DNA from: Ganoderma boninense
Lineage: Eukaryota > Basidiomycota > Agaricomycetes > Polyporales > Polyporaceae
Reading direction: 5' to 3'
Assembly (NCBI GenBank): GCA_002900995.3
Contig: CM035311.1
Coordinates: forward strand, 2,790,001-2,854,000
Length of the DNA: 64,000 bases
A program made the position numbers and the translations under genes. Of this stretch, positions 4,239 to 53,242 are shown piece by piece (positions within the stretch are counted from its first letter, which is position 1; every line of letters begins with the position of its first letter). The notes under the pieces were generated by a model. That model was not told the DNA's origin. It saw nothing but the letters and a program-made list of their open reading frames with translations, and ran no database searches.

Positions 4239-4284
4239 GCTATGAGTGAAGAAGACTGATCTTTCAACCTTCTTTACTCATAGC
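4239..4284 (-). repeat. Hairpin H1 (class i), 3' of A1psi
   Basis: Inverted repeat with a 16-bp stem: left arm GCTATGAGTGAAGAAG (4239-4254), right arm CTTCTTTACTCATAGC (4269-4284), one G.T pair and a 14-nt loop. It lies about 290 bp beyond the last coding remnant of A1psi. The same element follows most copies of the family. Confidence 0.85.
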
Positions 4285-4570
4285 AGCTCGCTTGTATGCG
4301 AGGCCTCCTTCTCATCTCAATAGTATTATCGACGCCATTCCTGCGGAGAACAGTCGGGACTCGGTATGAGAAGGTCGGACCGTGTATAGCGAGATGCAAC
4401 GTCGAAACAAGGGGACGCAAGCTTCAAGGTGTGTACATCGCAGAAATATTTTAGAGGATAAAGGAAACTATTTGTTTATATGTATTGCCCGGGGGAGGAG
4501 GATGTGTCTTCGGGCAGAACACACAATATGTTTGATGCGATTAGATATGAGTGTAGAAGACGAATCCTGG

Positions 4571-5455
4571 CTAGAGTTGCTCTGAGCGGCCTCGCAGGGT
4601 GATCCTGGTAGAGCATGTTGGAGTGCTGTCCTGCCGTGAGGGAGTCAATGTCATGCTTTGTGGTGGAGAGGATGGATCCTGCGCAGTCCCAAGAGGCGCA
4701 GGGAAATTAGTCGGGCACCCTAAAGCGTGCGTGAGCTCTGAATACGAGCTCTGCGTCGTGAGAGGGGATGGGCGCATGGCCGCGTACGCCGCCTCCTGCA
4801 CCCCGGAAGGCAAGGATGCCTAGAGGTACAGGGTGTGTGCATATCCCGCAGCCGCGGCGGCCTCCAACTCTTGCAATCGCTGAGGATAGATGGGCGGTAC
4901 GACGGCCGTGTACGGGATGGACCAGTCAAGGTAGTCGCTGCGCTCATATTGGGCCAACGACCTATTGCGAGGATGCCCTCCTCTCGCGCCCGAGCCTGTA
5001 GTCTTGCTCTGGCTGCCCGTCTCTGTGGGCTTTGTCACATAGCCTCTGGCTTGGGGCCGCTTCCCGCTCGCTGCGGCGTCATGCTGTTGGGATCGCGCTG
5101 GATCGGCCCCATAGCGGACGCGAGTCTCTTCGAGGGGGAGTCGTCGATAAGGCAAGGAAGGGGAAAGGCGTGATGACGTCCTTGTCGCTCCATCTGCCGC
5201 CCTGTGTAGCTGGAGACGCCGATCCCAATGCACGAATGCCAGCGCCCAGAATGATTCGTGGCTTGCGGTAGCCTAGTAGCCTTCGAGAAACTTCCTGTGT
5301 GCGTACATCCCGAGGCAATCGACGAGCTGCTCGATCATCTGACCGTCGGCTAATGCACGCCTCCACGGTCTATGGACGGCCGGACTGTGTTTGAGCGGTG
5401 CAGCTGGAAGGGAGTCGGCCCGTCCAGAGTGGATAGCACGGTGAAGTGGTAGCAC
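4571..5455 (-). pseudogene. A1psi: kinase C-terminus fused to the second half of an A-type gene
   Basis: The 5' part (about 5455-5240) encodes a kinase-derived piece, MIEQLVDCLGMYAHRKFLEGY, here shown by its key residues QLVDCLGM and RKFLEGY, which ends in a stop or frameshift. The 3' part encodes the A-type C-terminus: SDYLDWSIP, LQELEAAAAAGYAHTLYL, then a premature TAG at 4822-4820 where A2 and A3 have CAG or CAC, then SGVQEAAYAAM and SSYSELTHALG to 4571. With the stop and several frame changes no full product is possible. A6psi (plus strand, from 35089) has the same fusion point, so the chimera formed once and was then duplicated. Confidence 0.8.
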
Positions 5456-5459
5456 GGGG

Positions 5460-6330
5460 CTGGTCAGAACGATAGGTGGCGGAATGGGGCGTGCAAATGG
5501 GTATACTCACGATTCCCTGGTGCTGAAGGGGCGCCGATAGTGCGTCGGAGGGATCCTTTGGATTTGGAGCGTCCTATTACAGCCTTATAAGAACTGCGAA
5601 GGATGGGGCACATTGAGCCATGCGAGCTGCCGTACGCCATCTCATACGATATTGTGCCTCTGGTCAACCAATGGGGGCGCTGTGGTGCATGTACTACATA
5701 TGGGCACGCATGGATTGGATCGGATAGATCCATCACACAGCAGATTGTCGGAGGGTCTGGAAGTACGTGCACATTTTATGACTCACGGGTGAGATGAAGG
5801 AGTAACGAGGCCCGGCGGAGTTTTAGATCATTCGGGGATAGTTTGCTGAGCCTGAGTGGTGGATGCCAGGGGCACCAAGAGAGGTTGAAGCGGTGGACGC
5901 TCGTGGCATGATCAGAGTGCTCAAGTGAGGTGGGTCAAGGAATTCGCGGGCACAAAGGATTGGTATTGTAGGTTATGGGGATGAAAGAGAGAATGGTGGT
6001 CGTAGTCTGGTCCAAGGGTGATGCAAGCGCTCATGTGGCGTCGACGTCGCCTGCTGTAATGGGTAATGGAGACGCCCATCGCGAAACGTGGCGGCGAGTT
6101 TCCAAGTCCGCTGGGAGATCGATTGAATTCTTGCCGCACCCTCGTCGCTTTCATCGCCATCGGTTCTTGCTGGTGTCTCGTTTCGCTGTGTTCTCTTCCC
6201 ATCTGTCCTCTCTATGGATATCTGCGGTCTCCAGATCTATCGCTCGATGGAACGTAAAACATTCCGACTCACCAGTGCCCTTCCGGTCGCGCTCTCGCGC
6301 GGTCACCATCACACCTATACGGGATGGCCT
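5460..6330 (-). pseudogene. Decayed kinase promoter and catalytic-domain segment
   Basis: On the minus strand 5460-5810 contains SYEMAYG in a context like the kinase MVYEMAYG, followed by sequence like its C-terminal part. Near 5900-6330 lie CACCTCACTTGAGC, ACGTTTCGCGATGGGCGTCTCC and ATTACCCATTACAGCAG. The same block occurs near 3790-4190, 32390-32760, 34130-34560 and 36400-36710, and resembles the DNA just upstream of the intact kinase (14290-14370). Short ORFs in it are not conserved as protein. Confidence 0.55.
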
Positions 6331-6472
6331 TCTGTGAGTAATGGAGTTGTATGCGGAATTTTCTTCAGCAGCTCAGTACTACACGACAGATTGGGCCAAG
6401 GCACGACTCGGACCACTTGGTAACTCAAAGTCGCCGCTTGACACGCTCGCGTGGCAGTCGTAATTGAGTGGT

Positions 6473-6525
6473 CTGCTATGAGTAAAAAGATTCAACGTCG
6501 TTTCAATCTTCTCTACTCATAGCAG
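6473..6525 (-). repeat. Hairpin H2 (class i), 3' of A2
   Basis: Left arm CTGCTATGAGTAAAAAGATT (6473-6492) pairs with AATCTTCTCTACTCATAGCAG (6505-6525). The outer 12 pairs are perfect; the inner part has mismatches. It lies 321 bp beyond the A2 stop codon. Confidence 0.85.
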
Positions 6526-6845
6526 TTCTCCTGAATGCGAGCCCTGCTTGTCACTTCAACATCAGAATCGAAGTTATCATTCCGGGGGAGAGAAGCCGAA
6601 GCCTGTGGATTGCGACGTGCACAGTCAGAACGGGGGGAAAGGTGCGTGTATCACAGCATTTTATAAGAGAATAAATGGAACTATGCATCTATTTGAATTG
6701 TCCGGGGCAAGTGCTAAGCACACAGACTGCACATATGCGTGTCGCTGCGCTGAAGGAAATGTGTTTTCAGGAAGAACACATTGCTCTCGATATGAGAAGA
6801 TATGAGTAAAAATATTCAAGCCCGCCAGAGTGGCTCTGAGCGGCG

Positions 6846-9253: not shown

Positions 9254-9770
9254 TCACGACGACTCAGTGTCCGACCAACGGACGGCTGCATGTGTCGACG
9301 GCGCGGCGGAGGCCGCATATGCGCCGAGAGGATGCTCTCGGGCTTCTTCGGGCTTTGACGACGATGTGTGGGTCGCCAAGGAAGGTGAGTGCATGGCTAT
9401 GTATGCCGCTTCTGGCACCGTTGAGGCCGATAGACTGGCCTGGAGGTGCAGGGTGTGGGCGTATCCGGCCAAGACGACGGCCTCCAGTTCCTCCGATCGC
9501 TGAGAATAGATGGGCTCGAGGACCATGTACCGAATGGACCAGTCAAGGTAGTCCTTGGCTTCGACTCGGGTCACGTAGTCTGAGTTGCATGTTTGGGGCA
9601 TCTACAGTGTCGCGGGGCGTGCGGTTGCCCGTGGGGATGGGCGCGGCAGAGGAGGCGTACAGTTGTGCGCTGTATGTGGCAGACGCCTGCTCCAAAGCTC
9701 CATAATGGTTCACGATAAGGGCGGAGGCGATGCTACTCAAGTTGTGACTGTTTGAGCTGACGAGCACTTG
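9254..9770 (-). pseudogene. A8psi: C-terminal fragment of an A3-type gene
   Basis: Two overlapping frames on the minus strand together match the A3 C-terminal region. The first gives ALIVNHYGALE and YASSAAPIPTGN (A3: ALAANHHETWD and YASSAVPMRTD). After a frame change near 9590 the second gives KDYLDWSIRYMVLEP, SEELEAVVLAGYAHTLHLQAS and PEAAYIAMHSPS. The YSELAHA motif is decayed. No exon 1 or 2 is found upstream, so this is a 5'-truncated, frameshifted copy. Confidence 0.7.
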
Positions 9771-26403: not shown

Positions 26404-26699
26404 CCTGGAAAGGAGCTCTTGTTGACCGTATTACTCACGTTAACTTCGTCCCGGCGCCAAGCACGCCCTCTGCAGACTGCACCTGTGCAATCGGCCGAGG
26501 GGCGCGCACGCCGAGCGCAACAACCAGTGGACGACGCCATCTCATGTCTCATAGATACAGACACAACAGCTTATGTGCACTCACTTTTGTACCCTGCTCC
26601 GCTTTCCTAATGTCAACGTCTTGTTCCTGGTGTCGAGTCATCGACTGCAGCAAGTACCAACAGCTGTCTGCGTCGCAATGGGCCGCACATGAATTAATC

Positions 26700-28876: not shown

Positions 28877-29395
28877 CGGCCATGCACTTATCTCCCTGGG
28901 CGACGCACACGTCGTACTCAGCGCCCGAGGGAGGGCTGGAGCGTCCTCACGGCGTGGCATATGCCGCCGATTCTGCGCCGTCGACGCTCGCAACCGCTCG
29001 TTATCGGGGACCGAGTCGTCGCGATGCGGCCTGGGCTCAGACGTCGCAACAGGACTAGTACGCAGCGCCAGCGAGCAGCTTGTGACCACTTCAACGTGTC
29101 AGACAGAATGCAGAACGTAGCACCACCCATATTACTGTATGCCCGCACCCCGTGGGTTCATCGCCGGGCGCACTTTGAGCGTCCTGCATCTATGCAGATG
29201 GCGGTTGGACATCCACCTCAGGTGGAACTCAATTGCGCTTTCTCCTTCGCGTTGTGTAGATACCTAGTTCATGTACACTCACCTTTGTTCTCATCTCCAC
29301 CCAAGATGAATGTCTCCGTGTGCTCCGTCCGGTGTTTGTCAGGCTGGTTACAGACAGTTGTGTCCAATTCCGGATGTGTCGCGCAAGACTAAACT

Positions 29396-30375: not shown

Positions 30376-31912
30376 ATGCGTTTCGAAGATGAGCTTCCAC
30401 AAAAACAACGACTTCCTCGTGAATTTAGGAGACGTGTGGGGAACGATGTGAAGGTGAGCATTGCCGGTTCTCCTTGTGGCTGCCGAAGTTGATCCTCATC
30501 AATCTTACGATAGGCCAGATCCTATTGTCCCATCAATGGGACGAGACCATTCAAGCTCGTCCAGTTCATTTCGCAACAAAATTTGACGGAGGACCCGCCA
30601 CAACAGGACCATAAGCGGAAAAGGAGGGAAGAGACAGAGGTGCGTCGTACAAAGGCTCGCCATGAATGTCAAGTGGCGGGATCAGTGGATGGGGAGCAAG
30701 GAGCAAGGGGAGAGGAGACGGTGAGTTTCATTCAAGAGTAGCCCTCGTAAGGCCACTGAAAACACACGCGCGAACGTCATCGCAGTCTTTATCGGCAGGC
30801 ACAACGCCCACTATTGCACTGCCTCAAGCGCAATCCTGCCATATACAGTCCATCCATAACCCAGCGCCTGTGCCAGTTCCTGTATACCAACACCCCACTA
30901 CAGTCGCGTCCGGACGCAGCGTTCACCATCAACCACCGCGTCCACCACCAGCCTCGAGAATCCTCACGAGCAGCGCGTCGCGCTCGCGCACGACCCCGTC
31001 CATCCTCAACCACTGCCCCTGCATGCCACCACTGTCTTGCTCGGGCCTCTGCCAGAGGCGACGTACTTCGCGCGATACGCTTCGACCATTCACGCTGCTA
31101 CCACGAGTGTGGATCTCGCGTTTCGCCATAGTCCCTCAGCGAGCTCTTCAACATCATCGACATCCGTGCCCCAGCACAGATCGGCGCCTTCGGTCACGCA
31201 GCGCAGCAGATGGGGCGAGAAGGACTTCATGGGGGCTTATCAGGCCTTCCCCCTTCGCTGTCTTATCGACGATTCCAAATCGAAGAGACTCGCGTCCACT
31301 CTGGGGCCGATCCAGCGCGATCCCAACAGCATGACACCACGGCAAGCAGGCAGCAGCCTCAAGCCAGAGGGCTACGCGACAACGCCCACAGTCATGGGCA
31401 GCGTGAGCAAGACTATAGGATCGGGCGCGAGAGGAGGGCATCCTTGCAATAGGTCGCTGGCCCAGTATGAGGGCGGCGACCACCTTGATTGGTCCATACC
31501 GTGCGTGGCCGTCCCATCGCCCATCGACCCTCAGCAATTGCAAGAGCTGGAGGCCGCCGCGGCTGCAGGATACGCACACACCCTGCAGCTCCAGGCTTCG
31601 TTGCCCTCTGAGATGCAGGAGGCGTCGTACGCGGCCATGCACCCATCTCTACCCACGACGCAGAGCTCGTACTCAGAGCTCGCACACGCTTTGGGGTGCA
31701 TGAGCCACAATTTCAATGCGCCTCTGTGCAATCAAGCGCGCGGGGTTCAGCAACGTCCGTGCGTCCCATCACCGCGGCTGCAAAGCATGGCGTGGACCTC
31801 CTCACGGCAGGACAGTGCTTCGGCACGCACCACGCCAGTACAGCCAAACTTTCTCATTCCTACTCATATCGAACAGAATGTGCTCTCCCCGAGGACACCT
31901 CTTCCTCAGTAG
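30376..31912 (+). pseudogene. A4: A2-type copy, exons 1-2 intact, exon 3 frame broken
   Basis: Exon 1 30376-30453 (MRFEDELPQKQ... ending RRRVGNDVK) and exon 2 30514-30720 (ARSYCPINGTRPF, HKRKRREETEVRR) are perfect matches in layout to A2. In exon 3 the acceptor that A2 needs (ACACAG) reads ACAACG, so the remaining CAG at 30798 gives the wrong frame. A 1-nt deletion near 30960 relative to A2 shifts the frame again. From about 31037 the conserved C-terminus is open: EKDFMGAYQAFP, DHLDWSIPC, QELEAAAAAGYAHTLQLQAS, SSYSELAHALG, stop at 31912. As read, the protein would be about 200 aa without the conserved end. Sequencing error at either site is possible. Confidence 0.65.
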
Positions 31913-32756: not shown

Positions 32757-33455
32757 GGCCGCCGGGCACGAAGCGCAACAGATGGAGCGAGGACTTCATC
32801 GAGGTTTATCAGGCCTTTCCTCTTCCCTGTTCTATCGACGATTGCCACTCGAAGAGACTCGCGTCCACTCTGGGGCCGATTCAGCCGACAGCATGACGCC
32901 GCAGCACGTGAACAGAGGCCTCGACACAGAGAGCTACGTGACAACGTCCACAGTGATGGAAAGCAATATCACGAATACAGGCTCGGGCGTGAAGGAAGAG
33001 CACCCTTGAAATGCATCTTTAGCCCACTTTGAGGGCAGCGACCATCTTGACTGGTCTATCCCGTGCATGCACCGGCCATCGATCCTCAGCAATCGCAGAA
33101 GTTGGAGTCCGCCGCGGCTGCAGGATATGCACACACCCTGTACCTCCAGGCTCTATTGCCTTCCGGTGTGCAGGAAGTGGCATATGCAGCCATGCATACG
33201 TCTCCCCCCGTGACGCAGACGTCGTACTCAGAGTTAACGTACGCCATGGGACGCTCCTCTCACGGTCTTCCTGACAGCTATACATCATCCAACGTGAACG
33301 GATGGACGACAGCCCGCCGCAGAGTCTCTCTGAGTCAGGAGCCTGGCGCGCCGCAGCCTCCCCCGCAGCGGGGACTTCGAATACGACGACAGGGAGTAGC
33401 TTCTCACCCTCTCAACGTGGCCTGCAGCCCTCTTTGGCGGTATTACCCATATTGA
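32757..33455 (+). pseudogene. A5psi: kinase-promoter block fused to a mosaic A gene
   Basis: Starts abruptly in exon 3 with sequence equal to A2 and A4 (RWSEDFIEVYQAFP and SKRLASTLGPIQ in changing frames), has a TGA at 33007-33009, then DHLDWSIPC, SQKLESAAAAGYAHTLYLQA and TSYSELTYAMG to the stop at 33455. The part after YSELTYAMG (about 33250-33455) follows A3, not A2 or A4: residues GLPDSYTSSNVNG and a C-terminus like A3. The following hairpin is also of the A3 class. So this copy is an A2-type 5' part joined to an A3-type 3' end. Confidence 0.7.
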
Positions 33456-33696: not shown

Positions 33697-33742
33697 GCTA
33701 TGGGTAATAGAGCCGAATTCTTTTGGCTGTATTACCCATAGC
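33697..33742 (+). repeat. Hairpin H6 (class ii), 3' of A5psi
   Basis: GCTATGGGTAATAGAGCC (33697-33714) pairs with GGCTGTATTACCCATAGC (33725-33742), 17 of 18 pairs, loop 10 nt. Confidence 0.9.
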
Positions 33743-34680: not shown

Positions 34681-35849
34681 CTCACACACTTTCAGACCCT
34701 CCGGCAATTTGTTGTGTGATGGATCCATCTGATCCATGTGTGTCCATGTGTACATGCACCACGGCGCCCACTTGTTGACCAGAGCTACAATACTGTATGG
34801 GATGGCGTACAGCAGCTAGCATGGCTCAACGTGCGCCATCCTTCGCAGAGATCATAATGTTGTTCTAGGGTGCTCCAAATCCAAAGGATGCCTCCGACGC
34901 ACCATCGCTCTTGAGCTCTCAGCACTGGGGAATTGTGAGTATACCCATTTGCACGTCCCTTTGCACCGCCTATGCTTCTGACCAGCCCCGTGCTACCCTT
35001 TCACCGCGCCATCCTCTCTGGATGCGCCGACTCCCTTCCAGCTGCACCGCTCAAACATAGTCTGGCCGTCCATTGACCGTGGAGGCGTGTGTTAGCCGAC
35101 GGTCAGATGATCCAGCAGCTCGTCGATTGCCTCGGGATGTACGCACACAGGAAGTTTCTCGAAGGCTACCGCAAGCCCCGCATCCTTCTGGGCTCTGGAA
35201 TTGGGATCGGCCTCTCCGGCTACACAGGGCAGCAGATGGTGCGACAAGGACGTCATCACGCCTTTCCCCTTCCCTGCCTTATCGACAACTCCCGCTCGAA
35301 GAGACTCCCGCCCGCTCCGGGGCAGATACAGCGCGACTCCGACAGCATGATGCCGCAGCAGGCGAGCAGCGGCTTTAAACCAGAGGGCTATGCGACAACG
35401 CGCACATACATGGGCAGTGTGATCAAGCCTACAGGATCGGGCGCGAGAGGAGGGCATCCTCGCAATAGGTCGTTGGCCCAATATGAGGGCAGGGACCACC
35501 TTGACTGGTCCATCCCGTGCATGGCCGTCGCACCGCCCATCGATTGGAGGCCGCCGCGGCTGCAGGATACGCACACACCCTGCACTTCCAGGCTTTATTG
35601 CCCTCCGAGATGCAGGAGGCGGCGTACGCGGCCATGCGCCTATCCCCTCTCACGACGCAGAGCTCGTATTCAGCGCTTGCGCACGCTTTGGGGTGCCCGA
35701 CCACAATTTCCCTGCACTTCTGCGCTATAAAGCGCGTGGGACTGCGCAGCATCCATCGTCTCCGCCAGGACAGCGCTCCAGCACGCACTACTAGGATTGC
35801 GACGCCACCCGGAGCGATTCTAGCCCTCTTATATCTTCAATACTCATAA
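34681..35849 (+). pseudogene. A6psi: kinase relic fused in frame to an A-type C-terminus
   Basis: 34750-34830 carries the decayed kinase segment (ATGGGATGGCGTACAGCAG, compare DWWSMGAMVYEMAYG). A 213-residue frame from 35089 starts with the kinase C-terminal island (MIQQLVDCLGMYAHRKFLEG, then YRKPRILLGSG) and passes without a stop into A-type exon 3 (QQMVRQGRHHAFPLPCLIDN, SKRLPPAPGQIQRD, DHLDWSIPC). A net deletion of 19 nt at about 35541 relative to A4 removes the PQQLQE segment and shifts the frame; the C-terminus (EAAAAAGYAHTLHFQA, SSYSALAHALG) continues in another frame to 35849. The fusion point is the same as in A1psi. Confidence 0.75.
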
Positions 35850-36144: not shown

Positions 36145-36195
36145 CTGCTATGAGTAAAGAAGGTTGAAACCTTCAATCTTCAATACTCATAGCAG
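36145..36195 (+). repeat. Hairpin H8 (class i), 3' of A6psi
   Basis: CTGCTATGAGTAAAGAAGGT (36145-36164, arm to 36168) pairs with the arm 36172-36195 ending CAATACTCATAGCAG; 24-nt arms, 3-nt loop, few mismatches. 296 bp past the last coding remnant of A6psi. Confidence 0.9.
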
Positions 36196-39800: not shown

Positions 39801-40291
39801 TCCACTACTTCGACCCGGAAAACCCCATTCGGACCCCATCGGGCCCCTCCTCGCACACGTCTCGAGGACGAAACACTCAGCCTCGTCCCCTCCCCACAAA
39901 CGCATCTGCGGGTCCCGGTCCTTCGACCGTTTCTAACCGCAATGCCCAGAAGGGCAAGGAACGGACTGGCACGGTACGCTTGTCCCCCCTTCTCACCTCC
40001 ATCTCGTACAGCGTGAATGCTCCTGCTAACGCTGTACGATCCTTCTCAGAAACTCGACGGCAGCCGCTTCTCGCCGATCGAAGACTAGGCTCTGGACGTG
40101 GCGGCGCGGGGGACTCGCTCGCTGTGCTAGATAATATCATACCTGTACCTATCGCATTTGACTCTTTTGAATCTGAATCTGTCTCATCCTCACTCCCGGT
40201 TGCATGGGTTGCTACCCAGGAACTCGACGCCAACATTGCACTCCACGAGAACCTCCTTGGCAGGATTCATGCCAGGACCCCCTCCCATTAA
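36881..40291 (+). pseudogene. LINE ORF1, gag-like nucleic-acid-binding protein, with frame breaks
   Basis: The protein-like reading is spread over frames: an N-terminal piece from ATG 36881 (MSHHPRHHASPDTFSPQGSA), a frame change in a C run near 36970, an acidic Pro-rich piece to about 37330, a piece from ATG 37394 to a TAG at 38240-38242 (LQHCCMHLAVVRQYMTHNRR), a long piece in the next frame to about 39790, and a final piece to TAA 40289-40291. The fourth piece holds two zinc knuckles: CGKCWRFGHRGPQC and CVNCLLAHPSNSKDC. Two breaks lie in C runs, so sequencing error is possible; the break at 38240 could be programmed frameshifting. ORF1 normally coats the LINE RNA. It overlaps ORF2 by about 20 to 130 nt. 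Confidence 0.75.
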
Positions 40292-43200
40292 CCAAATGAA
40301 TGTTAGTACCGAACATTCGGATCCTTACCGACCGCTCGCAATTCCCCCGCACACCCTCGTCGCGGATATGTATGCGGAATTCGATCCCACCCCCAGCCCA
40401 ATCCACGACGCTGAACTTGACTCACCTCGGTCTGACGACCTTGATCTCTATAATCTCGACAACGACGCCCCACCTCCTCCCCAATTCCACGAGACGGTCC
40501 TCGAGTTTACAAATGCACTCAACACACCAGTCCGGATTCGACTGTCCTCCAGAGACAATTTAGCCGAGTTCTTTGAAAACACACCATCTCAACGCCCTGA
40601 CCCCAAACGGAGTGTTACTCTTTCCTTCACAAACTCCCAAGGTGCTAGCGTCCGCATCCTTGGACCCCCAGACAATCCTGCCCCTCAACCGCCTCATCAG
40701 CCCCGCCCTAAAGGGCGCGGTGACACACCCACTTCTCTACGCGTTCTGTTCCAAAACGTACACCACATCGCCCAACAAACCACCATGCTCCTCGAACTGT
40801 TTTCGAAGAGCCATGACGTCATTTGCGTAACCGAGCCATGGTACGGACGACTCCGCACCATGGGCCCCAACACTAGACACGCTCAGGCGCCCCCTACTCA
40901 CCGGGTCGGCAGCCCTGAACCAGGCGATGTACTCACTCCTGACCCACAAGGCCGCTACCTCTATGGTACCCAGAGCCACCCCAACTGGACCCTACTTGAA
41001 CCCGTACGCGACGCCCGTGTCGTCGTCTATGTTAACAAAAAACTGGTTCAGGCTACCTTCTCACTACACCACATCTTTACCACACGCGACGTTGCGCTTC
41101 TACAGCTACACCTCGCAAAAGACATGTCCTATAACATCCTTGCTTTGTACAATGACAAGCATTGCTCTGCACTCAACTACCTCGTCGACCACGTCAACGA
41201 AATCCCACACGTCCACCTTATGGGCGGAGACTATAACCTTCACAGCCGACAGTGGGACACCCTGTTCCCCACGACCTCTTCACAATCCAACCTGTCTAAA
41301 GTGGATGCCCTCCATGGCGCCCTTGGTCATAATCTCATCTCCCCTCCGGATGTTGTCACCCACATTCCGGACAACATCGCCCTCCGTGGCTCCGTCATCG
41401 ACCTCGTCTGGGCGGACGCCGATCTCACCACTTCCATTAGCATCCGGGGACAGGCACGGGGTCTCTCTGACCACGCCATCCTCGATGTCGAACTCCAAAC
41501 ACCCCCCTGGAGCCTCCTCGGAACTCCATCCATCACCAAGGGTTCCGACGACGAGATTAATCTCCTCGCCGAACTCGCCCGATCCCTCCCTGACATCCTC
41601 CCCTCTGAGGAATATCCACCTTCAGACCTATTCGGACTCTACCCCATTCCTCACGACCCCACCACCACACTAGAAACTACTACTTGCCTCTATCAAGCAT
41701 ATCAGGATGCTTGGACATCACACGCCCATCCCAAACGATTTTGCGGGAAATCCGCCTCCTGGTGGACCCCTGACAACAAAAACAAACTCAACAAGCTTAA
41801 AGCCGCCACTAAGGCTTCCACTCCACCCTGGCAATGGCGTGATGCTCGACGCAAGTGGTCATCCAACGCCCGCCACCATCCCGACTTTATGGGGCCATTC
41901 CATCCTGCCGTCTCTATACGGAAGGAGGCTCGCGCCAGCCTACGTGACTCTATACGTAAGGCTCGCAACAAACACATGGAGACTCGCATCCGCGAAATCT
42001 CCGAGGAGACCAAACGCGTCTGGGACTTAGGTCGCTGGTCAGGTCCACGACGCTCGTCATCACCCCCGGACATCGTCCATAACGGACACACCCTCTCCAC
42101 TCCCGACTCCTTGTGGCCGGCGTTCGATGAAGTCTTCCACGCCGCCGCACACCGCCCTGTCGACATTACTGTCACGGACGACCTCCCTTGCCTACCCACC
42201 CGAGACTGGCCTCCATTTAGTTTACAGGAACTCAAGGACGCCATCTCCAACACCACCTCCTCATCTGCCCCAGGTGTCGACCATATCCACTGGCGACATC
42301 TCAAATTCCTCATAGACTACAAAACGAACCCCAAGACGGCCGACAAAATCCTCCAAGGGTTCCGCACACTCTTCAATTGCTGTCTCACCCACGGCGTTTG
42401 GCCTGAGGAATTCCGCTGGGCCATCACGGTGATTATCCCCAAACCCAACAAGCCTGACTACTCCAAAGTCAAGGCCTACCGACCCATCGTTCTTCTCAGC
42501 TGCACTGCTAAGTGGCTCGAGAAGGTCATCAACAACCGACTCCAGTACGACCTACACAAACACGGCGTACTCCACCCCTGCCAATTTGGCAGCGCCTGGC
42601 AGAAATCTACCATCGACGCTGTCACCTTCCTACAGAACCATATTCGCGGAGGATGGCAACAGGGCCTCGTCACCTCCATGCTTGGCTTCGACGTCGCCCA
42701 GTTCTTCCCTTCCGTCAACCACTCACTTCTCATTGACATACTCGCCCGGGGCGGCTTTTCTCCCATTCTCACGAACTTCTTCAAATCCTACTTCCTCCCC
42801 CGACGCTCTTCTTTCCGTTTCAACAACTCCACATCCCCTGAGTTCGACTGCCCTGACGTAGGCGTCGGACAGGGTTCGTCCTTATCTCCTACTCTTTCAG
42901 CCGTGTATATCGCTCCAGCGCTACATGCCCTCTTCAACACTACCACCATCCAATCTCAGTTCGCCCTCCAATTTTACGTGGACGATGGGAACTTGGTCGC
43001 CACTTCCAACAGCACCGAAACCAACTGCGACATCCTTCGGATTGTCTACAAACAACTCAACACATACCTCCGTCGACTCGGTCTTCTCATCGAACATGAG
43101 AAGGATGAGCTGATCCATTTCATACCACCTCGTCGACAACCTGTTCACCCATTCGACTTCGACGACGTTCCTATCAACCTCAACAGCGGGCCCTGGAATG

Positions 43201-45302
43201 CGGACCACCCACTCCAACCCTCCCCTGTAGTCAAACACTTGGGCTTCTTCCTCGACAAGAAACTCTCGTTCAAGGACCACATCAAACACTACGCCGCCAA
43301 GGGCAACGCCACCGCCCTCGCATATCGTATGCTTGGGACTTCTGTCCGCAGCCTTACCCCTCTTCAACGCCGCAAGCTGTATATCAGCTGCGTCCGTCCA
43401 ATTCTCACCTACGGCGCTCCCGTTTGGTATCGTCCGATCGGGGGCAAAGACCTAACCAAACCGCTGGTGGTCACTCAAAACTCCGCCTTACGGTGGATTT
43501 CGGGCACGTTCTGTACGACCCCCACTGGCTTCCTCCCAATTGCTACGGCGATTGAACCTCTCCACGTCCATCTTAACAAACTCCGCAAACGCTATATTCT
43601 GCGGATCCACACACTGATGGATTCTCACCCCATCAAATCTCTCTTCCCCAACCTCTATCAACGGTCGTACCACAGCCCGTACATCCGTTTCTATCCTCCA
43701 CCGCACAAACCCAAGACTGGTGTCTTTCAGTGCGGCATCGCCTCTCAAGAAGACGCTCCATGCGAACCCCCCGTTCGTCATGCGGACGGCACCACTTCTT
43801 TCTACCCCGACTACCCTGAATGCTCCGTGTCATTCAACCCACTTGACGACGAGTGCCAACCTGGCAATCGTCTAATCGACGTTTTCCAGGACAGAATCAC
43901 CCTCCAACTGTCCCACCCACCCAAGGACGACCCTGACGAACTCCAGAAATGGATCCGCCGGGATCTCCAACCACGCATCGACAAGGCACGACATGACCAG
44001 TCTTGCCTCCACGCCTTCACCGACGGATCTGCCTCCTCTAAAGGTGGCAAATCCAGTGCCGGCTACATCCTCTTTCATGGCACGACTGAAATCCATTCTC
44101 ATGCGGAATGGTGCAGCCGCGGCTTCTCTTATGACGCCGAACGCACCGCACTCCTCCTCGCCCTAAAAAAGGCACTCAACTTGAACATGGATCAACCCTG
44201 CTCACATCTTCAAATCTTTTCTGACTCAGAGTCTCTGGGCAAAGCCCTCCATGACGTACGAGACGGAAACGAATCTTCACTACAAATCTCACGTCTTCTA
44301 CGGACGTGGTTTTTCCGCTCCCCCCATCACCGCTTTACTTTTTCCTACGTCCCGGGTCACTCCGGCGTCGAAGGCAACGAAGCGGTCGACAAGCTCGTCG
44401 GCGCCGTCTGCGTCCCTTCGGACTGGACCTCCCGCCCCACCTCATACGCCTTCCTCAGGGCCACCATTACTCGACTCCTGACGGACTCCGACTGCGCCTC
44501 TCGTCGTCACCCTACTGAGGTCGAGACAGACAAGGTGGCAGCTCACGTGGGGAAACAAGTACCCACCGGACCAATCGCGTGCGCACTCATCAATGCACGC
44601 CCCTCCTCCAAGAAAAACCTCATGCACACCTACGGGAAGGACTCGTCCATAATTTTTTACTCCCGCATGTGTCGACTCCTTTCTGGACACGCTCCCACTG
44701 GCGACTTCCGCCTTCGTATGAGGAGCAAACACAACGAACCCACCGCATGTCCATGCGGCGTACGGGCTGATGACGCCCACCCCAACAACTATGTTGTCCA
44801 GGACCGGCTCCATGTCCTACAACATTGCCCCATATACGCTCGCCGACCTCTCGGACGGCACAACCGGGAGGCCGCCACCTACTTGGAAGACTTGGATCCC
44901 TTCCCGAAGATCTACTGGTTCCTTCGGGACAACCCTCACGCCTTCAGCTTCGGAGGCACCCCCGACTCGGAACACACCATCTCACAGGCTCGGAACTTTT
45001 GGCATATCGCCGGTTCCATCCTATTCTCCAAACTACAGGATGATCCCATGGCCGTCATCGCTGACCTTCTGGAGGACCATCCCATAACACTCGCAATGAC
45101 ACAGGATCACGATTCCTTTGTCTCGGTATTCTATCGCGATTATAAAGCCCGCTCCAAGTGGGCCATTATCGCGTACAACAACCATGTTATGTATCCAACG
45201 CTCAACCGCGTCCACCAGGAACATCAACAACTTCTAAACGCACGAGGACACTACGTGACCCTCGACGATTTCTCTGAATCCCAAACTCAACACACGGAGT
45301 AG
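40158..45302 (+). CDS. LINE ORF2: endonuclease, reverse transcriptase and RNase H (up to 1714 aa)
   Basis: One open frame with no stop. The first ATG is 40158, inside ORF1; ATGs at 40269 and 40296 are more likely starts. Numbered from 40158: the apurinic-like endonuclease spans about 190-430 with FQNVHH (N200), TEPW, GGDYNLHS, IDLVWA and SDHAIL. Reverse transcriptase spans about 760-1010 with AYRPIVLLSC, GFDVAQFFPSVNH, GVGQGSSLSPTLS and YVDD (940-943). RNase H spans about 1285-1420 with FTDGSASS (D1289), SYDAERTALLLA, FSDSESL and PGHSGVEGNEAVD. A late Cys-His motif begins CPCG at 1531. All catalytic residues are present, so the enzyme looks active. It would nick target DNA and copy the element's RNA in place. 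Confidence 0.93.
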   Translation: MTLLNLNLSHPHSRLHGLLPRNSTPTLHSTRTSLAGFMPGPPPINQMNVSTEHSDPYRPLAIPPHTLVADMYAEFDPTPSPIHDAELDSPRSDDLDLYNLDNDAPPPPQFHETVLEFTNALNTPVRIRLSSRDNLAEFFENTPSQRPDPKRSVTLSFTNSQGASVRILGPPDNPAPQPPHQPRPKGRGDTPTSLRVLFQNVHHIAQQTTMLLELFSKSHDVICVTEPWYGRLRTMGPNTRHAQAPPTHRVGSPEPGDVLTPDPQGRYLYGTQSHPNWTLLEPVRDARVVVYVNKKLVQATFSLHHIFTTRDVALLQLHLAKDMSYNILALYNDKHCSALNYLVDHVNEIPHVHLMGGDYNLHSRQWDTLFPTTSSQSNLSKVDALHGALGHNLISPPDVVTHIPDNIALRGSVIDLVWADADLTTSISIRGQARGLSDHAILDVELQTPPWSLLGTPSITKGSDDEINLLAELARSLPDILPSEEYPPSDLFGLYPIPHDPTTTLETTTCLYQAYQDAWTSHAHPKRFCGKSASWWTPDNKNKLNKLKAATKASTPPWQWRDARRKWSSNARHHPDFMGPFHPAVSIRKEARASLRDSIRKARNKHMETRIREISEETKRVWDLGRWSGPRRSSSPPDIVHNGHTLSTPDSLWPAFDEVFHAAAHRPVDITVTDDLPCLPTRDWPPFSLQELKDAISNTTSSSAPGVDHIHWRHLKFLIDYKTNPKTADKILQGFRTLFNCCLTHGVWPEEFRWAITVIIPKPNKPDYSKVKAYRPIVLLSCTAKWLEKVINNRLQYDLHKHGVLHPCQFGSAWQKSTIDAVTFLQNHIRGGWQQGLVTSMLGFDVAQFFPSVNHSLLIDILARGGFSPILTNFFKSYFLPRRSSFRFNNSTSPEFDCPDVGVGQGSSLSPTLSAVYIAPALHALFNTTTIQSQFALQFYVDDGNLVATSNSTETNCDILRIVYKQLNTYLRRLGLLIEHEKDELIHFIPPRRQPVHPFDFDDVPINLNSGPWNADHPLQPSPVVKHLGFFLDKKLSFKDHIKHYAAKGNATALAYRMLGTSVRSLTPLQRRKLYISCVRPILTYGAPVWYRPIGGKDLTKPLVVTQNSALRWISGTFCTTPTGFLPIATAIEPLHVHLNKLRKRYILRIHTLMDSHPIKSLFPNLYQRSYHSPYIRFYPPPHKPKTGVFQCGIASQEDAPCEPPVRHADGTTSFYPDYPECSVSFNPLDDECQPGNRLIDVFQDRITLQLSHPPKDDPDELQKWIRRDLQPRIDKARHDQSCLHAFTDGSASSKGGKSSAGYILFHGTTEIHSHAEWCSRGFSYDAERTALLLALKKALNLNMDQPCSHLQIFSDSESLGKALHDVRDGNESSLQISRLLRTWFFRSPHHRFTFSYVPGHSGVEGNEAVDKLVGAVCVPSDWTSRPTSYAFLRATITRLLTDSDCASRRHPTEVETDKVAAHVGKQVPTGPIACALINARPSSKKNLMHTYGKDSSIIFYSRMCRLLSGHAPTGDFRLRMRSKHNEPTACPCGVRADDAHPNNYVVQDRLHVLQHCPIYARRPLGRHNREAATYLEDLDPFPKIYWFLRDNPHAFSFGGTPDSEHTISQARNFWHIAGSILFSKLQDDPMAVIADLLEDHPITLAMTQDHDSFVSVFYRDYKARSKWAIIAYNNHVMYPTLNRVHQEHQQLLNARGHYVTLDDFSESQTQHTE

Positions 45303-46790: not shown

Positions 46791-49049
46791 ATGGCTAGTT
46801 CAAATTCTTTGGGACCGAAGTATGGCGAGAAGGGGGCGCTGATGAGGAACTATCGGCAAAGGCACCAACCCCCGGTTCAACTCCAAAGAGCGATTGGAAA
46901 CGACAGACGGGTGAGCATGCATGCTTTTGTCTCTCGCTTTTCACAATAATTGAGCCGCTTCTCAGTGTATGGAGATGTGCCCATCGCCAGGGCTGCATGT
47001 GGATAGGCTCGGAGACCGAGCCGACCCTCTCCCGCCTAAACGGAAGAAGAGATACGAGCAGCACAAGGCGAGGATCCAAGCAGTCAAAGCAGGGGCCATT
47101 CAATCAAGGAAACGTCAGGTGGAAGGCGGGAGGAAGATGGCGGCGAAGAAGGTACATTTCATTACTTGTTGTCAGTCCTGTCATCAGATCTACAAATCTG
47201 AGCGTCACGATAGCCCCCACCAGTCGAAAACACGACGCCGCCTCCAGAGCAACCACCGCAGCTCCGCAATACCTTCCGGATAGCCCGTCCTCCACCACTT
47301 CCGCAGCTCTCAGCCGCACGGAGCACGGCATCTGATGACCGGCGTACCTCCTCTCCCTTCGATCCTGGCCATGCCCTCGCCCCCTCGACGTCAGTATGGT
47401 GGGTGGGACGGTCTCATTCCACGGGTCCAGCATCTGCAGTCGACCCGATGAACTCGCCACTGCCTGCTGCGAAGAGTGACCAGAAGCCAGGCGCTCTCGA
47501 CTCAGCATGCTATTACTTCGAATTCTCCGCCGCACCCCAGCCGAGACACGCCACACTGAGCCACGTCCGGTCTCAAGCTAACGCACCGTCACTAGGACCA
47601 GACAGCGACACCCTTTCCATGGCCCAATCGCCGGGGACATCATGTCCGGGGGGCACGACGCCGACGACGCCACCGTCCTCTTATGCGGCGGCGGGGCTCG
47701 ACGGTACGATGTTCATGGAAAAGCAAGGTGCGGACAGCGAGGGCCTTTCTAACACTGTGTGTGAGAGTTCTTTCATTCCTGGTTCGTCGAGGAACCGTAT
47801 ATCGCTAGAGCGCGAACAGGAATACGCGAACGCCCTATCCGCCATCCTCAAGACTGCTCCCCTGTCCTGCAACGCGGGGGAGCAGAATCCCGAGTTCTTA
47901 TCCCTTCCATTGCGCCCTGCATTGAAGGACCCTCTCGACGTCCAAACACGCGGTCCGACAACGATGGAGACCGCCGGCTGGACTTCTACGCACCCGGGAC
48001 AGCATTTTGGGCATCAAAATGTACTGACCACTTCTTCTCCTGGAGTACTGGGGGCTCATCCGCGGCGCACGCCTGCAAGTAGAAGCGCATCCCGCGCCGC
48101 CGGTGCTCCCGGAGAGCGTCGTCCCGGACATGCGACCCTTGACCGCCACGCTACACGCCCATATCCCAGCCACTCTGATCGACTTGCCGCAGGTCATGGT
48201 CATCACAGCCATCGTCTAGGGACTGCAGAGAGATCGGCGGCCATCCAATCCGCTGGGTACTGGACCACGCCGCCCATCGCGACCGCCATGCCGCGTGAAG
48301 CTCAAGTCCCGCAGCATGACGAGTACGTCACCGGGAACCTGGCTCTGCATGACTCCAACTCGCACCACCTCTCGGCGAGGACTCCGCCGTCACACATACA
48401 CTCCATCCACACCAGCGCCATTGCGCCTGCGCCCATGGCCTCCGCGTCGCTCGTCAACTCGGTCAACCACAATCGGTTCGGCGTGCCTATCACGATGAGC
48501 ACGCAACACTTTGAGCTTGCGTGCACATCGATGAGTGCATACAGCGAGCTCGCGCACGCCCCCGTCGGCGACTACCCCATAAATCTCCCAGCGATGCAAG
48601 CCGGCATTGGCGCTGCGACCCTCAACACGCCTCTATACACCCCGCATTTTGCAGGTGTCGGGATCACAAGCCGATCGACAATTGCACCTGAGCCCCTCGC
48701 GCACTGGCACAAAGATCACTACATCGCGTCCCATCCGATCACCACCGATCCCACCATTAGACCAGGGATCGATGCCGTGGTTGCAGCGGGTACATATCGC
48801 GCACATGCAGCCAACAACACTGACATGGCTCGCACCTTCGATGGACGCTTCGAGGAATGCGAGCCATTCTGGCTGAATACCAACGTTCCCTTCCTTAGCA
48901 TGGACTTCGCAACCGGACAAGGCCCTGAGGAGACGTATCTCGACGAACCTCCGACTCGCTCCCAAGGCGACCCCCACCAGCACTTCCTGACCACTTCGAC
49001 AAAGTTCCTCAACTCATACAACCCATATCCACACCTACCTCTGACTTAG
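46791..49049 (+). CDS. Superfamily member C1, uncharacterised protein (713 aa, 3 exons)
   Basis: Exons 46791-46910 (40 codons), 46966-47151 (62 codons) and 47214-49049 (612 codons with stop), phase 0 throughout. Exon 1 has GPKYGEKGALMRNYRQRH and ends LQRAIGNDRR. Exon 2 has CMEMCPSPGLHVDRLGDRAD and then the basic PPKRKKRYEQHKARIQAVKA. Exon 3 is long and low-complexity with MSAYSELAHAPVGDYP near residue 545 and a C-terminal block: DAVVAAGTYRAHAANNTDMA, RTFDGRFEECEPFW. The longest copy in the window. Its exon 1 has the same length as in B1, B2 and C2. The Lys/Arg-rich exon 2 could be a nuclear signal. Function unknown; the product looks soluble, without signal peptide or membrane segment. Hairpin H9 lies 219 bp beyond the stop. 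Confidence 0.75.
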
Positions 49050-49267: not shown

Positions 49268-49317
49268 TTGCTATGGGCGATAGGAGTCAGACTCCTGACT
49301 CATACAACCCATAACAA
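49268..49317 (+). repeat. Hairpin H9 (class ii), 3' of C1
   Basis: TTGCTATGGGCGATAGGAGT (49268-49287, arm to 49290) pairs with the arm 49295-49317 (CTGACTCATACAACCCATAA onward); 23-nt arms with an internal bulge, 4-nt loop. Confidence 0.8.
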
Positions 49318-50740: not shown

Positions 50741-50957
50741 GTAACGAGGCTGCGTTGAGGCTGATTGATCCACGCGCCGTCCTGTCAAGAAGCGAAGCAA
50801 ATGGCCACTTCGATCCACATACACCGTTTTGGCCGTACACAGGATTTGCTTTTAGAAGTTCAAGCCGTTTCCGACCACGCATAAGGCAAGCATTCCTCCT
50901 CCTCCCCCGCATGCGGATCGTATCTCTTACCCACCCACAAGACACTCTACACAGACA

Positions 50958-52023
50958 ATGACTACCTCAACGTCACCAGGACCGAAGTATGGAGAGAAGG
51001 GGGCGCGGATGAACAGCTATCGGCAAAAGCATCAAGCCCCGATGGCCCTCCAGAGAGCGATGGGGAACGACAAGAAGGTTAGCATGCACGCATTTTTCTC
51101 TAGCTGTTTAGATCATTGAAGCCACTTCCCAGTGCATGGAGATGTGTCCTTCCATAGGGCTTCGTATGGATCAGCTCGGAGACCGAGCTGACCCTCTCTC
51201 GCCTGCACGGAAGAAGAGGTACGAGCGGCAGAAAGCGAGAATCCAAGCAGCGAAGGCGGAGGCCATCCAGACTAAGAAAGGCCAGGTTGAACGTAGGAGG
51301 AAGACGGTGGCGAAGAAGGTATGTTCCATGCTTGTTGGTTTGGGAGCATATCCATAAATCTGAACATCGGAATAGCCCTCACTGGTTCAGAACACGACGC
51401 CGCCCCCTGAACAACCACCTCCACTTTGGACCGTCTTCCCATCTGTCCCTCCACCAGTGCGACTGCACTCTAAGCGACCACCTCGACTACGGAGAGTCTT
51501 CCCATCTGCCTCTCGACCACTAGCACTGCACCCGACAACCTTAGAGAGCGATGCATCGGTGGATGCTTGCGAGCCCTCGCGCAGCCTTCCCCATTACACA
51601 CCTTCACGCTCGATACCGCTGGTCACACTGAGCTCATGCATTTCCACGGGTACGGCCTCCACAGTTCCTGAGCTTGTCTACCAACCGCCACCGACTTCGA
51701 AGAAGGTCCTGACACCCCGACCCGTGCACGCCTCTGACCTCGCGCTGAGCCACAGCCCGTCTCCGGTGAGCACGCCGCCGCTGCAGTCGGACCGCGGAAC
51801 TCCCTCGACAGTCGAGTCTCCACGATCCTTGGGTACATGGGCAGATAGCCCGACACCCCCGCCACAGTCCTCTTCCGTACCGAAACAGCTCGATCGCAGG
51901 CCGTCAGAGGCCCGAGAAGATGAAGACAGCGAAGATCTCTTCAACGCTGTCTATCAGCGTCATTCCATCCCTCGTTCGCTACGGAATCCATCACCCATTC
52001 TGGGGATCAAGCAGGAAACATGA
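50958..52023 (+). CDS. Superfamily member C2, C-terminally truncated (317 aa, 3 exons)
   Basis: Exons 50958-51077 (40 codons), 51133-51318 (62 codons) and 51376-52023 (216 codons with stop). Exon 1 (GPKYGEKGARMNSYRQKH, ending LQRAMGNDKK) and exon 2 (CMEMCPSIGLRMDQLGDRAD, ARKKRYERQKARIQAAKAEA) are close to C1. Exon 3 is Ser/Pro/Thr-rich and stops at IKQET, long before the conserved C-terminal block. That block survives out of reach downstream (52740-52870). So this is either a shortened but working protein with N-terminal and basic regions intact, or an early pseudogene. Donor of intron 1 is GTTAGC, less common but valid. Confidence 0.62.
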
Positions 52024-53035
52024 AGTCCCGATCCGTCGTCCCAGAGACCGCTCTTGCCACCTGAAATAGTGCAGCACATCCCCAGTCGCCCCCTTTATCG
52101 TCCCCTACCACAGCCAACAACCATGATCCCTCCCGACCTCTACATGTGCGATTCCATGCTAACGACGACCGCCGTCTGGAGCTCGACATACCCGGGGCGC
52201 GCCACTCCCAGTCAAGGCCTCTATATGTGCCTGCCGGCCACTGCATCAGCAGTGGTACATTGATCATCAGTCACGGGAGCCTGCAGGTCAAGGCGCATTG
52301 CGCACAGCCGGTGCTTCCAGAGCGCGTCGTCCGTATGCGCGACCTCTGACCGTCAGCACAGGCCGCACCCTTATCCCAATAACTGTGGTCGATCCGCTGC
52401 CTATCCCAGTAACACCCTCGCGGCCACAGAAAGCTCTGTGGTCACCCAGGTCCCAATGCACCACTATTCATGAGACCACGCCGCACATCACCGGCGTTGT
52501 GCGCACGTGCATCTGAGAGCAATATACAGTGAACTCGTGCACGCCCTCGTCGATCACCACTCCACAGTTCCGCTTGTTGAGCAAGCCGGAGCCGATGAGA
52601 GGATCACCCTCGTCCCTCAATACAATCCATCTCCCTAGCGGAAGTGGCACTATTGCAAGCTCGCAGGTCCCGAGGGCACTCGCAGATCGATCTCCCCGTT
52701 GCGTGTCATTCGGCCCTCGCTAACCCCTTGACGGAACCATGTATCGAGGCCGTGACAGCGCCAGGCACCTCTCACGCGCATACAGCCAACAGCAACGAGA
52801 TGGCTCGCACCTTCGAAGGTGGCTTCGAGGAGTGCAGGCCATTCTGGCATATACTTCGCAACTGGACAAGGCCATGACGGGACGCACCTCGAAGTATCGT
52901 CGGCCGGCTCCCAGAGCGACGCTCCGCCTCCCTCCGCTAGCAGTTCCTAGCTCCTTTACCGCGCGACCCACACCCACCCCGTCTACAAGCTCGAACTCCG
53001 GCACAGTCTTGTGTATGCAAGGACCGAACCAATAA
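52024..53035 (+). pseudogene. Decayed 3' part of C2
   Basis: Frames here are broken, but 52740-52850 encodes AVTAPGTSHAHTANSNEMA and RTFEGGFEECRPFW, matching C1 DAVVAAGTYRAHAANNTDMA and RTFDGRFEECEPFW. The rest of C1 exon 3 is only faintly traceable. Indels and stops separate it from the C2 frame. Confidence 0.65.
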
Positions 53036-53196
53036 GTAGTAGACCTGGAGCTACATGCTTCTATATAAACATGTTTTCGATGTACTCACTTTAGTCTGCT
53101 CTACTCCAGCCTGGCGTCGGCCTAGTTTCCTACTCTCGTCTGCTGACACGAAGTTGCCTTGTATGTGTGTTTGAGTCGCACACGCTTGGATCAACT

Positions 53197-53242
53197 GGTA
53201 TGGGCAATAGGATCCAGTCTCCTGAGTCATATCACCCATAAC
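53197..53242 (+). repeat. Hairpin H10 (class ii), 3' of C2
   Basis: GGTATGGGCAATAGGATCCA (53197-53216) faces CTGAGTCATATCACCCATAA (53222-53241). The TATGGG/CCCATA core is kept; the inner stem has several mismatches. The most eroded of the ten. Confidence 0.65.

Follow-up and report, generated by a model that had tools for sequence, protein, structure and literature searches.

At a single locus of Ganoderma boninense, most copies of a rapidly changing gene family are followed by a short hairpin, and most of these copies end in a three-part DNA site composed of a linear half-site at the coding end, a spacer, and a short palindrome. The half-site is a direct repeat of the 3′ arm of its own hairpin together with three loop bases, about 21 nt in all, and this matched code varies from copy to copy. 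The covariation that links half-site and 3′ arm is stronger than that within the stem, and each gene copy seems to carry a matching lock-and-key pair of its own. The reading preferred here, tentatively and with something short of even confidence, is a site that acts at the level of DNA and has a recognised core, at which the private letters of each copy are copied from half-site to 3′ arm and from there to 5′ arm.

Hairpins and Genes of the Cluster

The cluster extends over 178 kb and contains 22 hairpins, 10 of which fall inside the window (the whole 64-kb stretch of DNA analysed), with 12 more flanking it on both sides. All ten hairpins listed in a preliminary description of the window (H1–H10) were recovered within 2 nt of the positions it gave (Table 1). 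That description placed a hairpin behind almost every A- and C-family copy, which is mostly the case, with one A-family remnant lacking it, at distances of about 160–520 bp past the coding sequence; measured from the frame end, H2 lies at 322 bp and H5 at 234 bp. The core GCTATGRG/CYCATAGC is shared as described, with mutated letters in H10, and the arms of class ii are present, although more variable than reported. Both half-site and recognised gene are lacking for H7, I107, and D1c; the sense strand of D1a–c and M0 was assigned from flanks, first exon or half-site rather than from a full gene. An outer second helix beyond the core is weak on average (permutation p 0.0017) and ranks first among the 22 hairpins only in D1a, D2, and H10.

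Genes of the cluster occupy both strands. Among nine frames of the window and four proteins of Ganoderma sinense, the only Pfam matches above the cut-off were LINE domains, accompanied by a few sub-threshold matches. The AlphaFold model of GSI_13197, built from three sequences, has a mean pLDDT of 36, with helices predicted only at residues 64–92 and 276–284. A link to mating type, assessed through the STE3 receptor, was discarded, the STE3 matches being located on another contig (C7) and not with the cluster.

Table 1. Positions within the window of hairpins, half-sites, and family coding sequences; fractions give half-site letters equal to the 3′ arm plus loop.
Feature	Position	Strand	Remarks
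Hairpin H1	4239-4284	-	
Hairpin H2	6475-6523	-	
Hairpin H3	26700-26745	+	
Hairpin H4	29396-29441	+	
Hairpin H5	32147-32193	+	
Hairpin H6	33697-33742	+	
Hairpin H7	34066-34113	+	Orphan, no half-site
Hairpin H8	36147-36193	+	
Hairpin H9	49270-49315	+	
Hairpin H10	53197-53242	+	Mutated core letters; no half-site
Half-site of H1	4546..4566	-	18/21
Half-site of H2	6801..6821	-	18/21
Half-site of H3	26419..26439	+	15/21, partly decayed; missed by motif-only scan
Half-site of H4	29111..29131	+	18/21
Half-site of H5	31848..31868	+	17/21
Half-site of H6	33431..33451	+	18/21
Half-site of H8	35828..35848	+	19/21
Half-site of H9	49007..49027	+	17/21
A-family coding remnant	4544..5196	-	Two overlapping frames; before H1
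A-family open frame, 397 aa	6846..8039	-	Relative GSI_13198 of Ganoderma sinense
A-family remnant	9281-9722		No hairpin
A-family open frame, 383 aa	25252..26403	+	Before H3
A-family coding remnant	30666..31912	+	Frame change near 30964; before H5
C-family open frame, 611 aa	47214..49049	+	Relatives GSI_13171/13194/13197
C-family coding remnant	51376..52920	+	Several frames; no recognisable half-site

Within the window a strict core pattern (GCTATGRGT-N10..40-CYCATAGC) matches 10 times, at 6 places, where 100 dinucleotide shuffles gave 0.00. Applied to the whole genome, it picks up 12 of the cluster's 22 hairpins plus a single isolated place, C8:601904; as it misses the other 10, decayed copies outside the cluster could escape it. 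The lone hairpin has no half-site and is probably unrelated to those of the cluster, and a looser core pattern was at control level among the matches listed. These results bear on the suggestion that the hairpins are fold-back elements, for which hundreds of unlinked genomic copies with target duplications had been named as the mark of a MITE. Insertion of such an element behind the genes, with half-site and arm as its target duplication, would yield a short palindrome with an upstream direct repeat of one arm; nevertheless, it is very improbable, given one strict match beyond the cluster (with a pattern that misses 10 of the 22 hairpins within it) and matched letters that differ between related copies, which an old target duplication cannot produce. 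Moreover, the flanks are homologous on both sides between hairpin copies of the same class, and the hairpins have therefore spread by duplication, not insertion.

The Upstream Half-Site

A half-site is found in 18 of the 22 copies, 188–316 bp upstream of the hairpin (260–316 bp in the window). It is absent from the preliminary description. Over positions 3–17, half-site and own 3′ arm are equal in 250 of 270 cells (18 copies); agreement is poor at positions 0–2 (30/54 cells) and better at the three further letters, those of the loop (36/54). The border of the match is sharp, reading CATA/GC in one and CATA/TY in the other (slash at the border), and a conserved core, TATGRG/CYCATA, is present in all parts, with the copy-specific letters adjoining it. 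In the 62 cells where the two arms of the hairpin disagree, the half-site follows the 3′ arm in 58, the 5′ arm in 1, and neither in 3, the 5′ arm departing from its two partners far more often than these depart from each other. The half-site of H9 falls in the last codons of its C-family frame, and that of H5 lies, as judged by eye, about 11 nt from the aligned position in its sisters.

These statistics use ungapped offsets and 18 of the 22 copies, D1c, H7, H10, and I107 having no matching half-site; the weak half-sites of H3 (13/20), D1a, and M0 (both 14/20) were kept. Because half-sites were first chosen as the best match to their own 3′ arm, the choice favours a match, and they were picked again by the core motif alone, with 22 copies scanned and the 21 scoring at least 7 counted, poor ones included. 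On this basis 131 of 168 private letters match the own arm, compared with a fraction of 0.31 for other arms (0/100000 permutations).

Covariation and Divergence

The arms had been described as covarying, and this is borne out in aggregate though not pair by pair. In 18 hairpins, 85.4% of stem cells pair (70.5% in shuffles) and 70 cells have changed on both sides, against 29.4 in shuffles and 14–29 in slid registers; a tree-aware aggregate over all 22 hairpins gives z 9.5 (0/1000). Counting against covariation, the 13 of 21 stem pairs with a double change are equalled in 52 of 500 shuffles. None of 20 stem pairs reaches E 0.05 in an R-scape-like per-pair test, so stem covariation is clear only in aggregate. 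For half-site and 3′ arm, the same kind of test makes 6 of 20 register pairs significant, and the tree-aware aggregate is z 15.4 (18 copies).

The suggestion that the stem is an RNA hairpin in the 3′ UTR of the sense mRNA, serving stability, localisation or 3′ end formation, fits the place of the hairpins behind coding ends and the stable folds predicted for them, in both strands. It does not fit the mismatches of the sense stem, in which G.T does not exceed A.C (25:41 with gaps allowed, 29:38 without gaps, 23:27 on 18 copies), so that G-U is no better tolerated; the antisense strand, instead, folds better in 15 of 22 hairpins (p 0.07–0.09). A sense element also leaves the upstream direct copy of the 3′ arm unaccounted for, and is considered improbable.

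In the two larger clades, divergence of the private letters is not slowed relative to the flanks (0.49–0.56 vs 0.27–0.45), and a gap-optimised flank measure on seven pairs gives 0.43 and 0.34 for private letters and 0.26 and 0.21 for flanks. They are slower than the flanks in the two-copy clade H3/H6, as is the 5′ arm in class i. The half-site match is equally good behind broken genes, at 113/120 for frameshifted or truncated coding sequences, 68/75 where little is recognised, and 69/75 for single open frames. By eye, one run of three adjacent letters separates H5 from H8, and it does so identically in the half-site and in the 3′ arm; between H9 and C104 the matched differences are single letters, scattered and not forming a block.

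Half-site and palindrome might also be operator sequences of their own gene, bound by the protein of that copy or by a paralogue-specific DNA-binding protein. The strand symmetry of the mismatches, the private codes of the paralogues, and a basic helix at residues 64–92 in the low-confidence model of GSI_13197 would suit such binding. It is nonetheless rather improbable: proteins do not usually require a match so strict, with 15 positions identical almost letter for letter, the matching persists despite broken coding sequence, deviations are far more frequent in the 5′ arm than in the half-site, and the family proteins have no Pfam domain.

Local Copying or a Small RNA Guide as Possible Explanations

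The preliminary description saw in the stems either selection on, or copying of, a folded structure; this fits, with copying favoured here and the stronger link running to the upstream copy of the 3′ arm. DNA copying is our best guess on account of the 58:1 following of the 3′ arm, the unslowed private letters, the match behind broken genes, and the lack of a G-U preference, and the three-letter change shared by half-site and 3′ arm in H5/H8 also counts for it. The core would be bound by some recognising factor, and the private letters would be held equal through local copying: the hairpin would stall or break, a strand ending in the core would re-anneal to the half-site and copy about 8–20 letters from it, and the stem would then be mended arm to arm, so that letters pass from the half-site to the 3′ arm and on to the 5′ arm. 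Such a site would probably serve fold-back exchange in the turnover of the gene cluster, and the earlier proposal of a cruciform used in recombination is compatible with the data. Copying alone does not explain the conservation of the core across 22 diverged copies. Against it stand the poor match at positions 0–2 followed by a better loop match, which a single copying tract does not predict, the slower private letters in H3/H6 and slower 5′ arm of class i, and the scattered differences between H9 and C104. No deletion products were recognised, the six exact core-plus-flank matches all being hairpin ends (one-mismatch matches are near background), and we know of no mechanism by which a direct repeat would be copied across about 280 bp with a single fixed border.

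The main rival to DNA copying, possible but on the doubtful side, is that the hairpin is transcribed antisense to the gene and releases a guide of about 21 nt that base-pairs, at the half-site, with the mRNA of that same gene. The guide would be the 5′ arm of the antisense hairpin, that is, the reverse complement of the sense 3′ arm, beginning 5′-UAUGRGYR and continuing into the private letters, and the private codes would stop paralogues from silencing one another. A sense guide from the 5′ arm was rejected, the half-site following that arm in only 1 of 62 informative cells. The 3′ arm is a hub that matches both partners, as a guide would; an antisense guide would pair with its half-site in 250 of 270 cells; the match extends over about 21 nt and has its sharp border where the 5′ U would be; it also takes in loop letters beyond the stem; and the better folding of the antisense strand in 15 of 22 hairpins points the same way. 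Piwi-domain (Argonaute) matches lie on C1, C3, C4, C11, and C12. Of two codes searched genome-wide, a 20-mer occurs exactly only at its own half-site and hairpin, and a 16-mer has one additional exact place, on C11. The guide is less readily reconciled with matching that is independent of intact coding sequence and unslowed in the larger clades, or with a G-U preference that is no more than a trend (half-site/arm differences, read as an antisense guide, comprise 6 of wobble type, 10 other transitions, and 28 transversions). It leaves a conserved half-site letter just outside the guide (CATAT) unaccounted for, and Rfam has no match at gathering score in the window; in one 4.6-kb stretch there are three weak sub-threshold matches to miRNA precursors, all antisense and far below the cut-off.

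Significance

Covariation in a stem is commonly read as proving that selection acts on RNA. Among the 22 related copies described here, a direct repeat lying outside the stem takes part in the strongest covariation, and the wobble signature of RNA is absent, so that the locus makes the choice between selection on RNA and copying of DNA directly testable. A guide would make these hairpins a self-targeting family in which every member has its private code, and copying would make the locus an unfamiliar kind of local concerted evolution whose core and border are defined. A broader idea, which we regard as unlikely, is a eukaryotic self-address system in which each paralogue holds its code of about 21 nt twice, linear at the gene end and folded in the hairpin. 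Code and copy would change in step, at an unslowed rate, and each copy would be identified as itself, rather than as its sister, by an RNA guide or DNA strand exchange. If true, such a code would amount to gene-by-gene identity tagging in a nuclear genome. The terms searched in the open-access literature returned no description of such a half-site/hairpin module.

Comparison with Known Systems

In integrons, attC sites are palindromes that follow clustered genes and fold as DNA; their outer boxes are conserved and their inner arms variable. The present sites resemble them in standing behind clustered genes, with a conserved core outside and variable arms within. They differ in having the core GCTATGRG/CYCATAGC rather than the attC boxes, in genes that lie in both orientations instead of one, in their eukaryotic host, and in that every gene has a linear partner private to it. 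Plant MIRNA genes are reportedly born by inverted duplication of their target, the match being to a separate gene; they share with the present hairpins an arm that matches a target gene, whereas here hairpin and site lie behind the same gene and change together.

Template switching re-matches the arms of imperfect palindromes (as described in PMC8794818 and PMC8604942), and covariation can thus arise by copying, without selection on RNA. Arms re-matched between related copies are seen here too (in aggregate, with 0/20 pairs singly significant), but the best partner is direct rather than inverted and about 280 bp away, and there is a fixed border with a conserved core. Fungal microRNA-like loci, as described in PMC9757828, also combine a short hairpin, a matched segment of 21 nt, and a possible target site. 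RNAi genes exist in the Ganoderma boninense genome, and as hairpin precursors the present stems can fold from either strand. The main text of that source nowhere uses the word antisense; relative to the loci it describes, a guide at this locus would differ in being antisense, aimed at its own gene, and private in code to each paralogue.

Hairpins and Associated Genes

All ten hairpins of the preliminary description (H1 to H10) are present at positions within 2 nt of those reported, and a covariance model of 18 hairpins combined with a direct scan brings the number in the surrounding cluster to 22. The strict form of the core pattern (GCTATGRG/CYCATAGC) matches 12 of the 22 and, elsewhere in the one genome searched (55.6 Mb, 74 contigs), a single further place; decayed copies may also exist elsewhere. 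A looser form occurs at 67 forward places vs 68 for the control, and among the matches listed, which run up to contig C9, those outside the cluster are, by eye, simple GCTATGGCTATGG-like repeats or lack such a stem. For four hairpins outside the window (D1a-c and M0) the sense strand, i.e., the gene direction, was assigned from the flanks, the first exon, or the half-site described below.

Most of the hairpins lie behind genes of the A and C families, which have by eye the appearance of distant homologues, sharing an N-terminal P..(L/F)(Q/R)R.(V/M)GND, a YSELAHA motif, and an end like QQLLTTST. Matches to the gene family are confined to one stretch of contig C8 in this genome, none of the Pfam families fits, and an AlphaFold model built from three sequences is nearly all of low confidence. 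The four protein relatives found, GSI_13198, GSI_13171, GSI_13194, and GSI_13197, are all hypothetical proteins from Ganoderma sinense, each search covering the 7997 candidates that shared most words; a Ganoderma-like mushroom is therefore the probable source. Two far members also carry hairpins, their match to the G. sinense protein being limited to about 40 N-terminal residues.

Features in and around the hairpin cluster (C8, CM035311.1, with the window at 2790001-2854000; C7, another contig)
Feature	Coordinates	Strand	Remarks
Stretch with the 22 hairpins	C8:2.700-2.924 Mb		
Gene-family matches	C8:2.729-2.902 Mb		
Far family members	C8:2727204; C8:2764439		
D1a-c	C8:2726057-2727247		three hairpins inside 1.2 kb, following a single far family member
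Strict-pattern match elsewhere	C8:601904		
A-family remnant	window 9281-9722	-	no recognisable hairpin behind
A and C families, examples	window 25252-26403; 47214-49049		
Aspartic-protease-like frames and a glycoside-hydrolase-like frame	window 22.0-23.5, 58.3-59.3, 62.1-63.2 kb		near cluster; by eye
Non-LTR retrotransposon	window 37301-45302		inside cluster; first frame zinc-knuckle-like by eye, second 1723 aa with endonuclease, RT, and RNase H domains
STE3 pheromone-receptor matches	C7:2.199-2.240 Mb		24, densely clustered

An Upstream Copy of the 3' Arm

Upstream of 18 of the 22 hairpins, 188-316 bp away in sense, the 3' arm recurs as a linear copy with 13-19 of 20 letters equal. This half-site, a direct repeat of about 21 nt comprising the hairpin's own 3' arm and loop bases, was found by ungapped comparison over 1200 bp on the upstream and 700 bp on the downstream side of each hairpin, a stretch in which the next-best matches mostly reach 10-13 letters. 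It is located close to where the coding region ends (within the last codons for H9) and in most copies ends in CATAT(C/T) where the hairpin has CATAGC; identity stops sharply after CATA. Agreement with the own 3' arm is weak at positions 0-2 (30/54), reaches 128/144 at positions 3-10 (about 51 with permuted copies), and includes 36/54 of the three loop letters. In D1b, 20 of 21 letters are equal; in H5, the half-site core appears by eye about 11 nt off its position in the sister copies, and the 3' arm matches the half-site there. The C-terminus of GSI_13194 continues to ...HHPYPP, compatible in frame with the half-site core, a hint, at the protein level, that the half-site may be conserved between species.

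In 15/18 copies (exceptions H3, M0, and D1a), the arm has its best match outside hairpins, within 224 kb, in its own half-site, and in 13/18 this half-site also beats the other hairpins, H5 and H9 failing only against these. Two codes were searched genome-wide: the D1b 20-mer occurs exactly at two places, its half-site and hairpin, and with three mismatches at D2, and the H9 16-mer occurs at three, its own two sites and one on C11.

Because these half-sites had been chosen by similarity, a control selected them on the core motif, regardless of similarity to the arm, inside a fixed stretch some 150-345 bp upstream, where a lone 9/9 motif is present in 15/22 copies. For the 21 copies scoring at least 7, the private letters (copy-specific letters beside the core) match the own arm in 131/168 cases vs a fraction of 0.31 for other arms (0/100000 permutations); a downstream control stretch gave 40/176.

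Stem Covariation and the Central Role of the 3' Arm

The co-varying stems initially claimed are upheld in aggregate and not pair by pair. In an 18-sequence alignment, 85.4% of stem cells pair (shuffles 70.5%, slid registers 33-44%), and 70 cells are changed on both sides vs 29.4 in shuffles; 13 stem pairs show a double change, a number reached by 52/500 shuffles. Over the inner 12 positions of all 22 hairpins, a mean of 8.0 pair with the own partner vs 4.5 with partners of other copies, the own partner arm being best or joint best in 13/22. The copies share ancestry and are not independent of one another. In a tree-aware aggregate test of our own implementation, its tree drawn from the flanks alone and substitutions moved to other places along that tree, the stem excess is 0.289 vs 0.022 (sd 0.028) expected, reached in 0/1000 simulations. 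In an R-scape-like per-pair test, also our own implementation, 0/20 stem pairs are singly significant at E 0.05.

The same per-pair test finds 6/20 half-site/3'-arm pairs significant, vs 0/20 between 5' arm and half-site and 0/760 among other column pairs. Aggregate z is 15.4 for half-site and 3' arm, 9.5 for the stem (9.2 in the 18 copies with a half-site), and 7.2 for half-site and 5' arm, the last as expected via the 3' arm. Half-site and 3' arm agree in 250/270 cells (18 copies, positions 3-17), and in the 62 cells where the arms disagree the half-site follows the 3' arm in 58, the complement of the 5' arm in one, and neither in three. Half-site changes between related copies likewise track the 3' arm: at differing 3'-arm positions, both half-sites follow in 40/56 and both 5' arms in 17/56 (15 overlapping, non-independent pairs), with individual values of 3/3 for H9/C104 and H5/H8, 4/5 for H1/H2, 2/3 for C0a/C101 and D1b/D2, and 0/1 for H3/H6.

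RNA Pairing or DNA Copying

A selected folded sense RNA, as in the 3' UTR hairpin originally suggested, should have more G-U pairs than A-C mismatches. Sense stems of the 22 hairpins have 25 G.T vs 41 A.C with gaps allowed and 29 vs 38 without (23 vs 27 in the first 18), and the antisense strand folded alone is the more stable in 15/22 (mean 2.9 kcal/mol, p 0.07-0.09). A sense 3' UTR RNA thus becomes less likely, and DNA or an antisense RNA is left.

In the larger clades, the half-site/arm match does not slow change, as private letters diverge no less than flanks. The private eight letters diverge in class i by 0.56 for the half-site and 0.54 for the 3' arm, with flanks, measured gap-free, at 0.27-0.44 and a slow 5' arm (0.21), and in class C by 0.49 for both (flanks 0.32-0.45). 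Class D values (0.50 and 0.38) are inside the flank range of 0.22-0.50, and those of H3/H6 are slower (0.25 and 0.13 vs 0.36-0.42); with gaps optimised, seven pairs give 0.43 and 0.34 vs flanks of 0.26 and 0.21. The match behind broken or little-recognised coding sequence equals that behind single open frames (frameshifted or truncated 113/120, little recognised 68/75, single open frames 69/75), integrity being judged from frame changes, which short introns or assembly errors may also produce.

An antisense small-RNA model ranks close behind the DNA-copying reading and, like it, is less likely than not. It would account for the 3' arm as hub, the matched length and loop letters, and a border falling on what would be a 5' U, and Piwi-domain matches occur on five contigs, but it would require antisense transcription and diversifying selection. 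Sub-threshold antisense matches to three Rfam miRNA-precursor models in one 4.6-kb stretch (20.7-24.1 bits vs cut-offs of 63-89) are given no weight.

Our first choice, held tentatively, is a fold-back site acting at the DNA level, recognised by its core and copied from a template; DNA copying is favoured over selected RNA pairing because slowing, dependence on coding sequence, and a wobble signature are all absent. Conservation of the core speaks for continued recognition of the site by some factor. Copying would run as a chain in which the half-site is matched to the 3' arm and the 3' arm in turn approximately to the 5' arm, which fits the half-site equalling the 3' arm while the 3' arm only approximates the 5' arm. 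Template switching, as a process by which arms are re-matched, is documented (PMC8794818, PMC8604942).
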